From a bacterium (Candidatus Gribaldobacteria) CG10_big_fil_rev_8_21_14_0_10_41_12 (GTDB taxonomy: Bacteria > Patescibacteriota > Minisyncoccia > Minisyncoccales > CG1-02-41-26), in contig PFAV01000054.1 of assembly GCA_002773545.1 (NCBI GenBank), positions 1,748 through 16,177 of the forward strand: DNA of 14,430 nucleotides. Direction: 5' to 3'. Below the pieces are notes generated by a model. The model was not told the DNA's origin and ran no database searches. It saw only the letters and a program-made list of their open reading frames with translations. Shown piece by piece: positions 12,834 to 14,430 of the stretch. The first letter of the stretch is position 1; every line of letters starts with the position of its first letter. The position numbers and the translations under genes were made by a program.

Positions 12834-12865
12834 GTCATTCTGAGGCCTACTGACCAAAGAATCCC
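12834..12865. repeat. Half copy of the palindromic repeat (GAATCCC type)
   Basis: GTCATTCTGAGGCCTA...AAAGAATCCC has the same ends as the half units at 1116-1143 and in rsmA, and its GGCCT interior resembles the right half of the rsmA copy. Confidence 0.7.
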
Positions 12866-13010
12866 ACAAGCGCTAAAAGCCCTAAACTATCCACACTATG
12901 ACACAAAATCAAAAGAAACGCAAGCCCGCGGCCTAAACAAAAATCCGCCTGCGACAAACTCAAGACGGACAAAAACGCTACAATATAACAAAACCCTACT
13001 TAAGCGCTGG
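12866..13010. other. Gene-free stretch
   Basis: No convincing coding sequence on either strand. It holds a short imperfect inverted repeat, ATCCGCC...GACGGAC (about 12947-12974), and two AAGCGCT motifs (about 12871 and 13002). It follows the stop of the HicB-like gene on the minus strand, but no clear terminator is seen. Confidence 0.5.
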
Positions 13011-13166
13011 CTAAAAATCACCATCCAAGTGCAGATCAATCGCCTTTTTAATGTTTCGCGCGGCCTCGTCTAATGTTTTGCCCTGCGAAACCACGGGCAA
13101 ATCCAAGCACTCTGCCACAAAATATTTATCCCCTTTTGAAATTTTAACTTGAAGAATTCTTTTCAT
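13011..13166 (-). CDS. HicB-like (UPF0150) antitoxin-type protein
   Basis: A 51-residue protein: MKRILQVKISKGDKYFVAEC, then LDLPVVSQGKTLDEAARNIKKAIDLHLDGDF. The pattern of a short beta-strand pair, VAECLDLP, a gap, and GKTLDEAxxNIKKAI is that of the HicB/UPF0150 fold, the usual antitoxin of HicA mRNA interferases. It has only the HicB core, without a C-terminal DNA-binding domain, and no hicA is adjacent, so it may be solitary or an orphan. A 175-bp MITE lies 4-7 bases before the ATG. The promoter and the SD-like AAGGG lie beyond it, so translation of the present gene is probably disturbed. Confidence 0.75.
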   Translation of the reverse strand: MKRILQVKISKGDKYFVAECLDLPVVSQGKTLDEAARNIKKAIDLHLDGDF

Positions 13167-13173
13167 ATAGTTA

Positions 13174-13348
13174 GAGATGGTTGCAAAACTATTCCTGCTG
13201 CAATTTTATCTTTTCGGCTGCGTCATCGTCAGACTTCGCAAAATGCTTTTCGCCGTAGCTGGGCTACGGCCTCAAAACATTTTGCTCGTCTTCCTCGCCT
13301 CGCTCGAAAATCTAAAATTTCGCTACGAAATAGTTTTGCAACCATCTC
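13174..13348. mobile_element. 175-bp MITE-like element with TTA duplication
   Basis: The terminal arms are perfect inverted repeats of 21 bp when one flanking base is counted (13173-13193 with 13329-13349; GAGATGGTTGCAAAACTATT and its complement). The interior continues as an imperfect hairpin to a central GCCGTAGC-TGG-GCTACGGC (13252-13270), whose middle is exactly the midpoint of the element. TTA stands on both sides (13171-13173 and 13349-13351), a 3-bp duplication of the TNA type known for some IS5-family groups. The ends share GTTGCA..A..TA...TCC with the left end of the IS at 13743. No transposase inside; the short ORFs across it are palindrome artefacts. Confidence 0.85.
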
Positions 13349-13367
13349 TTACCCTTATTCTAATATC

Positions 13368-13396
13368 ATCTTAATATCCACCGCTTGATTTGTCAA
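13368..13396 (-). promoter_or_regulatory. Promoter of the HicB-like gene, separated by the MITE
   Basis: On the minus strand a perfect TTGACA (13396-13391), a 17-base spacer and TAAGAT (13373-13368), then GATATTAGAATAAGGG up to the MITE. Removing the MITE and one TTA gives AAGGG-TAACTAT-ATG, that is, an SD-like sequence 7 bases from the HicB-like start. Confidence 0.65.
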
Positions 13397-13418
13397 ATTA
13401 AATAGCTACGCCGAAAAT

Positions 13419-13446
13419 TTGCAAACAAACAGCGAAATGTTAAAAT
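13419..13446 (+). promoter_or_regulatory. Leaderless promoter of the nucleotidyltransferase gene
   Basis: TTGCAA (13419-13424), 16 bases, then TAAAAT (13441-13446) with extended TGT before it. Six bases separate it from the ATG at 13453. Confidence 0.55.
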
Positions 13447-13452
13447 GATTTA

Positions 13453-13743
13453 ATGACAGAGGAAAATGCCCTGCGAACAATCAAAAAGATTATTCTGGAA
13501 TTTGTGGATCAAAAAACCCATCAATTGTTTCTTTTTGGCTCAAGGGCAAACGGCCAAGCCAGAAAATTCAGCGATTTTGATATTGGCATAAAAGGAAAAA
13601 AGCCGCTCTCCTTAAAAACCGTCGCTTTAATAAAAGAAGCGCTGGAGGATTCTGACTTGCCGTTTGAGGTTGATGTGGTTGATATGGCGGGAGCCGCTGA
13701 AAAATTCAAAAAATTGGCGTTAACTAAAATCAAAAAATTATAG
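13453..13743 (+). CDS. MNT-type minimal nucleotidyltransferase
   Basis: A 96-residue protein of the polymerase-beta nucleotidyltransferase superfamily. The catalytic pattern is complete: GSRANG (29-34), SDFDIGI with D41 and D43, and the third carboxylate D74 in FEVDVVD. The C-terminus FKKLALTKIKKL is like that of full-length relatives, so the protein is probably intact. MNT proteins are mostly antitoxins of HEPN toxins, some by AMPylating the toxin; here no HEPN gene is adjacent, and an IS end abuts the stop codon, so the partner may be displaced or elsewhere. It is divergent from the HicB-like gene. No SD; leaderless promoter. Confidence 0.88.
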   Translation: MTEENALRTIKKIILEFVDQKTHQLFLFGSRANGQARKFSDFDIGIKGKKPLSLKTVALIKEALEDSDLPFEVDVVDMAGAAEKFKKLALTKIKKL

Positions 13744-13780
13744 ACCTGTTGCATAATAACTCCTCAAATACCTCGATTTC

Positions 13781-13789
13781 TGTTAAAAT
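13781..13789 (+). promoter_or_regulatory. Extended -10 promoter of the transposase gene
   Basis: TGTTAAAAT, the same nine bases as before the nucleotidyltransferase gene, 8 bases before ATG 13798. No clear -35 box. Confidence 0.45.
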
Positions 13790-13797
13790 AGAGGCAT

Positions 13798-14430
13798 ATG
13801 ATGAGATACAATAACTTAAAACAAAGACCAAAACATTTTCTTGCCTTTACTGGCTTGACCGTCGCGGAGTTTGACAAGCTGGTTCAGGATAATCGCCAGG
13901 ACTGGCAAGATCAAAGAATCCAACGACTGCTGAAAAATCTACCAAACAGAAAACGGAAAATCGGAGGCGGCAGAAAGTTTGCCCTTACAACCATGGAAGA
14001 CCAATTGCTTTTAACCTTAATCCTGGCCAAGAGCTATTGTTCTTGCTTGCTTTTGGAATATCTCTTCAATATTGACGCCAGCACGGTCTGCCGAACTGTT
14101 CACACCTTAATGTCTCTAATCAAGAAAGATGGTAAATACATTATCGATCTTGGTCCCAGACCAAGCAAGAAAATCACCACGATAGAAGAGCTAAGAAAAG
14201 TTATGCCTGACATTGACGAAATACTGGCTGACTGCACCGAGCAGAGAATACCCAGACCAGAAAAGAAAGCTAAAAGAAACAAACATCACTCTGGAAAAAA
14301 GAAGGCCTTCACCATTAAAACTCAGATGGTCACCACTAAACAAGGGCTAATTGTTAATCTTGGCAAACCCGTTCCCGGTCGGCCGCATGATTACAAGATA
14401 TTCAAAATGTCCAACCTGCCCAAGATTATC
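13798..14430 (+). CDS. IS5-family transposase (HARBI1-like DDE), C-terminus outside the window
   Basis: Two ATGs in tandem (13798, 13801) begin MMRYNNLKQRPKHFLAF; no stop occurs before the window edge, giving 211 codons so far. Counting from the second ATG: a helix-turn-helix N-terminal domain (FTGLTVAEFDKLV, GGGRKFALTTMEDQLLLTLI, DASTVCRTVHTL; about 14-105) is followed by the DDE domain. That has the first catalytic Asp in ADCTEQRIPRP (D144), the family segment HHSGKKKAFTIKTQ and the second Asp in PGRPHDYKIFK (D197). The third acidic residue must lie beyond the edge. The pattern is that of IS5-family members with HTH_Tnp_4/DDE_Tnp_4 domains, probably the ISL2 group. GAGG (13791-13794) could serve as SD for the second ATG. 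Confidence 0.9.
   Translation, partial: MMRYNNLKQRPKHFLAFTGLTVAEFDKLVQDNRQDWQDQRIQRLLKNLPNRKRKIGGGRKFALTTMEDQLLLTLILAKSYCSCLLLEYLFNIDASTVCRTVHTLMSLIKKDGKYIIDLGPRPSKKITTIEELRKVMPDIDEILADCTEQRIPRPEKKAKRNKHHSGKKKAFTIKTQMVTTKQGLIVNLGKPVPGRPHDYKIFKMSNLPKII

Follow-up and report, generated by a model that had tools for sequence, protein, structure and literature searches.

The 175-bp hairpin that separates a hicB-like gene from its presumed promoter in Candidatus Gribaldobacteria CG10_big_fil_rev_8_21_14_0_10_41_12 is very probably a MITE-type, non-autonomous transposon copy within a wider hairpin family of the Patescibacteria. The window, i.e. the whole stretch of DNA that was analysed, comprises 14,430 nucleotides, and the features discussed here are collected in Table 1. 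A transposase acting in trans would have inserted the element into an AT-rich target of 3 bp in the leader of the hicB-like gene, the target would have been duplicated as TTA, and the insertion would have parted the presumed promoter and Shine-Dalgarno sequence (SD) from the start codon. The copy number, the duplications, the empty sites of some sister copies, and the length and the fold common to the copies are matters of observation. The copy in the window is probably recent, judging from its identity with sister copies.

Table 1. Features of the window around the element in the hicB-like leader.
Feature	Position	Strand	Basis
HicB-like (UPF0150-like) ORF, 51 codons, ATG 7 nt past the element	13011..13166	-	ORF list, Pfam, relatives
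TTA target-site duplication, hicB side	13171..13173	.	flank comparison
MITE-type element, whole-length imperfect hairpin, 175 bp	13174..13348	+ (orientation of alignment A1)	repeats, copies, fold
Left terminal inverted repeat GAGATGGTTGCAAAACTATTC	13174..13194	+	repeat search
Inner box TTCCTGCTGCAATTTT (phylum form TTTCTACTGCAATT), partly internal loop	13192..13207	+	recurrence in distant copies
Apical hairpin CCGTAGC-TGG-GCTACGG	13253..13269	+	fold, covariation
Inner box AAATTTCGCTACGAAA, facing the left box	13315..13330	+	recurrence in distant copies
Right terminal inverted repeat	13328..13348	-	repeat search
TTA target-site duplication, promoter side	13349..13351	.	flank comparison
AAGGG, presumed SD, now parted from the ATG	13352..13356	-	sequence
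Promoter-like TTGACA-17-TAAGAT, upstream of the element	13368..13396	-	promoter scan
Divergent Polbeta/NTP_transf_2 (MNT-type) nucleotidyltransferase, 96 aa, neighbour outside the element	13453..13743	+	Pfam

Read on the minus strand, the order is TTGACA-17-TAAGAT, AAGGG, TAA, the 175-bp element (13348 to 13174), TAA, CTAT and ATG. The strand runs ...AATAAGGGTAA-[175]-TAACTATATGAAAAG... at the insertion, so AAGGG, 7 nt and the ATG become contiguous if the element is removed. A preliminary description, made from the letters of the window, had proposed a 175-bp MITE inserted between the SD and the start codon, with a hairpin just before the ATG, whose removal would rebuild a promoter and a ribosome site. 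These claims have held. The element possesses inverted repeats, is bordered by TTA on both sides, has at least about 55 copies, carries neither a transposase nor other conserved coding sequence, and lies between the AAGGG (the SD being presumed) and the ATG, ending 7 nt before the latter. The terminal inverted repeats of the element proper measure ~21 bp; the arms including the duplication (13170-13193 and 13329-13352) span 24 nt and are 96% complementary. The minus strand of 13166-13396 is predicted to fold into one long hairpin of -94.9 kcal/mol, compared with a mean of -48.7 for shuffled sequences (z -12.2). The promoter-like sequence TTGACA-17-TAAGAT is the best of the 7 such sites in 12840-13800, with 10/12 matches, and shuffled sequences hold 2.0 such sites. 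A coding role of the element was considered and rejected, its plus frame 0 being open in 17 of 39 copies and its third positions showing no excess of variation. The end of another copy (G000:C53:1621-1710) lies 38 bp to the left of the window start.

The own genome (G000) is a draft of 714 kb in 75 contigs. The terminal repeat has 93 matches in it at up to 2 mismatches and none in the backward control. Grouped into elements, these matches give 19 two-ended copies along with 55 single ends. As 36 of the single ends are of one sense, the total comes to some 55 copies at least, and a further seven full-length copies show 99-100% identity with the element of the window. Among full copies, 12 of 17 in the own genome and 4 of 27 in relatives are bordered by an exact 3-bp duplication. 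Over all fetched loci such duplications were found at 50 of 95 two-ended copies, AAT/ATT making up 31 of the 50, whereas the flank control gave 11 of 376. The preliminary description had interpreted the TTA pair as the mark of transposition with a 3-bp duplication and had suggested a search for further genomic copies with such duplications, and both points are supported by these counts. Transposition of the close family is well established. Regarding the single ends, 33 of the 55 lie at most 150 bp from a contig border, 16 lie inside contigs and 6 are in contigs of unknown length; all of the 11 inside ends inspected meet N within 200 bp. Judged by the single ends at contig borders, the hairpin of the element seems to break the draft assembly.

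A comparison with a relative that has the empty site had also been suggested. For 12 copies, one of which was covered in part, the two flanks were joined and compared with 24 family genomes, the own genome included, and the matches were then realigned. Cases without a junction gap are L007, a copy inside a small ORF for which G001 is uninterrupted (87% over the span), and L008, for which G002 aligns at 89%, the alignment reaching just 18 nt past the junction. For L002, which sits in a GIY-YIG gene, the alignments to G012 and G018 (79%) also show no junction gap, and these sites may be paralogues because G012 holds several similar places. At L014, between ftsW and murG, G002 aligns at 85% with a 2-nt gap close by and G001 at 77% with small gaps, whereas the junction is spanned with indels at L016 (G002), L006 (G002 and G001) and L015 (G008). 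For the copy of the window, the flanks had no match outside the own genome among the matches listed for the 24 family genomes. Empty sites were thus encountered for some sister copies and not for the window copy. Two of the sister copies deserve a comment of their own. L006 (G000:C55:4507-4681) lies in a 23S-5S rRNA spacer, recognised by eye, and is absent in G002 and G001. The copy L002 (1495-1932) is placed in the start of the GIY-YIG gene, where an open frame passes through the element into the gene and could give a chimeric N-terminus.

Matches to the element were found in 9 of 60 relatives, the own genome included; eight of them have near-full copies and G057 has only a 24-nt match. The terminal repeat is present in 10 of the 247 genomes of the order, and the scan of named species genomes for it yielded at least 65 stretches. 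Two-ended copies occur in Falkowbacteria, Gribaldobacteria, Taylorbacteria and several Parcubacteria, while the single repeats in Pseudomonadales, beta-proteobacterial and cyanobacterial records look like chance matches. No match to the element was detected in viruses, phages and plasmids, either with exact patterns or with blastn. The length is well kept: all of the 27 full copies from relatives of other genera measure 173-177 bp, and the two commonest lengths of the 95 two-ended copies are 175 bp (44 copies) and 176 bp (14 copies).

The family alignment contains 39 of 44 full copies, after leaving out L002, L003 and L004 (identical to the window) and L009 and L011 (too long). Its 52 hairpin pairs are paired in 95.6% of the cells and 31 of them show two-sided change, as compared with 5-8 in controls with slid partners and 13.2 in shuffles. 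The element is therefore more than a decayed insertion sequence (IS), because the fold is common to several genera and shows two-sided changes. The hairpin represents a mobile family of some age whose structure is conserved, a point which the preliminary description had not foreseen.

Beyond the close family, a covariance model revealed relatives in 31 of 379 Patescibacteria genomes, the own one included. These matches come from a hairpin model in which long hairpins gain score, the reverse strand of the window alone reaching 85 bits. The first copies from distant genomes (L260-L287, n=28) measure 150-164 bp in 22 cases. In the copies inspected, the terminal arms mostly differ (for example GACCTACTGCTTAATAATT, GAGCCCGTTTCAAAAATTC and GGGTCTGTTGCCGAATGCC), and the inner boxes TTTCTACTGCAATT, TTTTGGCTGC, TCGCTCAAAAT and AATTTCGCTACGAAA recur in most of them; L277, L280, L281, L284 and L285 lack most of the inner boxes, which are wanting in several weaker matches. 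The element thus appears, from these comparisons, to belong to a wider Patescibacteria hairpin family, mostly of 150-180 bp, in which the inner loops are kept and the terminal arms change yet stay complementary.

The alignment of distant copies comprises 48 of 69 loci (L259-L327), without 12 duplicate fetches and nine short, weak or misplaced loci (L277, L280, L281, L282, L284, L285, L286, L293 and L325). In 47 chosen distant copies the 15 outer pairs are 93.2% paired, shuffles giving 54.5% (highest 57.3%), a comparison to be read with the fact that the alignment was fitted to the covariance model, which favours pairing everywhere. Two-sided change affects 259 cells in the outer pairs versus 69 in shuffles; it touches 15/15 of these pairs and also 13.7/15 in shuffles, so that, for the outer pairs, just the number of changed cells and the proportion of pairing are informative. 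The 37 inner pairs are paired in 90.9% (67.1% shuffled). Conservation, expressed as the share of the majority base, amounts to 0.575 for the outer arms, 0.68 for unpaired columns and 0.71 for the remaining paired columns. The arms of the model itself are well conserved, so that variable arms with kept loops are not a pattern that the model favours. With an anchor method, which kept 32 of 49 rows and often misplaced the right box, the within-copy match is 0.74, as compared with 0.54 between copies of the same genome and 0.45 between genomes; the figures from the alignment of distant copies are preferred to these. The closed, single-contig genome G379 holds seven copies with differing arms, each self-complementary at 17-20 of 22 positions. 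An exact 3-bp duplication was found at 0/7 of these copies with an automatic boundary guess, and at 4/40 distant copies under the same guess, which rewards duplications. Such rarity, like that in the full copies of relatives, speaks against the transposon reading but fits age; the distant copies may have moved by transposition as well.

Two explanations can be offered for arms that change and remain complementary. In the first one, proposed here as a speculation of rather low probability, these are mobile hairpins of the whole phylum in which a folded core with conserved internal loops would form a functional module, made of one of the strands as RNA or as single-stranded DNA; the arms would be free to change while complementary, movement would be governed by the fold or by the inner boxes instead of fixed ends, and one copy would have become the leader of the hicB-like gene. 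The second one, which we likewise regard as rather doubtful, is that template switching during replication keeps the arms complementary with no selection on structure, the family being an ordinary decaying MITE. Template switching is able both to build hairpin stems and to repair them, and it can give rise to covariation in palindromes (PMC8794818); besides, forms of 136, 125, 49, 46, 33 and ~20 bp with palindromic ends also occur. Nevertheless, the mismatched inner loops persist, although a correction of this kind should remove mismatches; across the phylum the unpaired columns are better conserved than the outer arms (majority base given above); and the mismatches of the outer arms provide a hint of G.U pairs in the RNA of one strand.

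In these outer arms, A.C mismatches outnumber G.T ones by 26 to 10 in the family and by 44 to 12 in the distant copies. Counted as distinct cases they are 41 and 11, and among the 17 informative genomes 14 show the excess of A.C (p 0.013), which suggests, weakly, that G.U is tolerated in a minus-strand RNA. It is possible, although short of probable, that one strand of the element forms a structured module, as RNA or as single-stranded DNA, which serves the element's own movement or the host. The kept inner loops and the excess of A.C agree with this, as does the fact that the minus strand is the better-folding one in nearly all copies (37 of 38 in the family, 46 of 48 among the distant ones); in the window, this is the strand of the hicB message. 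On the other hand, DNA parameters give the same strand difference (38/38 and 46/48), and this difference follows from the shared loops, so that the copies are not independent. The inner helices show the opposite sign, mostly owing to one pair: G.T exceeds A.C by 54 to 23 in the family (31 from one pair) and by 70 to 39 in the distant copies (40 from one pair). A function as a leader has a further point against it in the 12 own copies between tandem genes, 6 of which are sense and 6 antisense by hand count and which thus show no orientation bias. The Rfam search with a part of the window and 10 loci returned no family, only miRNA-model matches far below gathering.

The candidates for the mobilising enzyme were sought among DDE transposases. 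No autonomous partner with the ends of the element was found in the family, the order and the fetched loci, which are draft assemblies in which PF13359 and PF01609 were sought and some IS ends are unreadable; the search for long-range pairs of terminal repeats also revealed no autonomous IS among the matches listed. The fetched DDE transposases with readable ends were rejected as parent because these ends differ from those of the element; for L210 and L213 the search revealed no ends. PF13359 has one match in the own genome, which is the IS beside the element; it matches 5 of 16 genomes with close elements and 0 of 28 with distant elements, and PF01609 is present in 5 of 6 genomes examined. 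The neighbouring IS (L113), with DDE_Tnp_4 and HTH_Tnp_4, occupies 13741-14430, continues to the contig end and begins approximately at the stop codon of the nucleotidyltransferase; it was discarded as parent on its left end, GACCTGTTGCATAATAAC versus GAGATGGTTGCAAAACTATT, its right end lying beyond the contig. Insertion sequences with these two domains are of the IS5 type. The nearest IS is one of 828 bp in G008, with ends AGACCTGTTGCAAAATAACT, a TAT duplication and the block GTTGCAAAA in common with the ends of the element. The IS5-type sequences thus resemble the element in their 3-bp duplication and, in G008, in the block, but none with the element's ends was found and PF13359 is missing from the genomes with distant elements. 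The transposition is presumed to use DDE chemistry, and the ends of the element may be akin to those of the IS5 type.

With regard to the gene behind the element, a protein search with the HicB-like ORF returned 40 relatives at E <= 0.001. In the alignment of the query with 17 of them the same Met starts all 18 rows, which makes the start codon believable. The relatives measure 49 to 81 residues, and 24 of the 40 have 76. The short form of 51 residues is probably no fresh damage, since P0002, a relative 84% identical to the ORF, also has 51 aa. P0001 is another relative of 51 aa; the longest contigs for P0001 and P0002 measure 1010 and 1309 bp. The HicB label is weak in Pfam, where HicB_lk_antitox (PF15919) has E 0.008 and 16.7 bits, below the cut-off of 27, and HicB antitoxin is the source annotation of some relatives. 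No hicA partner was recognised beside the gene in an ORF list reaching down to 30 aa, of which the two larger downstream ORFs were scanned with Pfam and gave no match. An orthologue of the divergent nucleotidyltransferase in the same context was not seen, the best one (54%, in G006) having another context. The IS beside the nucleotidyltransferase may have displaced a partner gene, because the G006 homologue has another ORF at that place.

As for the effect on translation, we think that a hicB message with so stable a predicted hairpin before its start is probably translated poorly, without translation being necessarily abolished; both complete silence and rescue by a stem that joins SD and ATG seem unlikely. 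The improbable case of silencing, in which the hairpin separates the SD from the start codon and the gene is heading for loss, would draw on the extreme stability of the hairpin and on the linear distance between SD and ATG, now about 185 nt in the message; against it, the ORF is intact with its 84% identity to the 51-aa relative, and sister copies end 9 nt before retained ORFs. One of these is L014 (G000:C44:8108-8282), located between ftsW (Pfam E 1e-85) and murG (1e-34 and 1.1e-27) and ending 9 nt before the ATG of murG; the other one, in G002, precedes a HlyD-like ORF. Both ftsW and murG should be needed, so that this locus evidently tolerates a hairpin immediately ahead of a start codon, and silencing of hicB is no safe inference. 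On a reading of the sequence, L014 also turns the ftsW stop codon TAA into TGA, leaving the protein unchanged.

The murG copy speaks, at the same time, in favour of a split ribosome-binding site, in which the stem would bring AAGGG to the ATG and the gene would still be translated. This possibility, which has a parallel in phage T4 and which we consider improbable, agrees with a predicted fold in which AAGGG sits at the base of the stem, the ATG following 7 nt past the element. Cleavage of the inserted hairpin by RNase III is likely, and counts against it. So do the size and stability of the insert (175 nt, about -95 kcal/mol), far above the T4 cases, and the predicted fold, in which the two final G of AAGGG are mostly base-paired with residues preceding the ATG. 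Those cases are T4 genes 38 and 25, where, according to PMC3014915, structure shortens the spacing between SD and start, which goes from 22 nt to 5 nt in gene 38 and from 27 nt to 11 nt in gene 25; this shows that structure between them can help. They share with the hicB leader the presence of a structure between SD and start codon, but the T4 structures are much smaller and have experimental support, whereas the fold of the leader is a predicted one.

Several known repeats of bacteria can be compared with the MITE-type family. ERIC, Correia and RUP elements are imperfect palindromes of conserved length; they differ from the element in sequence and in hosts, and the element has the AT-rich 3-bp duplication. 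MITECca01, reported from a single Cardinium strain (PMC9769881), is accompanied in the same genome by the IS982-family element that is its parent. Like the present family, it is short and without transposase, has terminal inverted repeats, reaches a high copy number in a reduced genome and is mostly intergenic; unlike it, the family treated here extends over many genera, no parent was found for it and its distant copies conserve their interiors better than their ends. Among the open-access matches listed, none treated the MITEs of Patescibacteria; one dealt with MITE-like repeats of Thiohalocapsa, and the words Patescibacteria and candidate phyla are absent from the main text of a 2024 review of prokaryotic MITEs (PMC10969869). 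Mobile repeats of this phylum therefore seem to be little described. A family with drifting ends and a lasting core and pairing lends itself to a test of template switching versus selection on the fold. Besides, its copies are natural insertions directly before start codons that can be used for translation studies, and they also seem to break draft assemblies.

Finally, small forms of 49, 46, 33 and ~20 bp were observed (L156, L180, L187, L161, L201, L159, L245 and L246) which keep both ends and often the duplication too. They may result from hairpin-driven deletion in place or be very small mobile units. One 49-bp form occurs in both G000 and G002, where its right flank is shared as well, and beside it G000 has an extra palindrome of ~20 bp, in a 23-nt stretch missing from G002.
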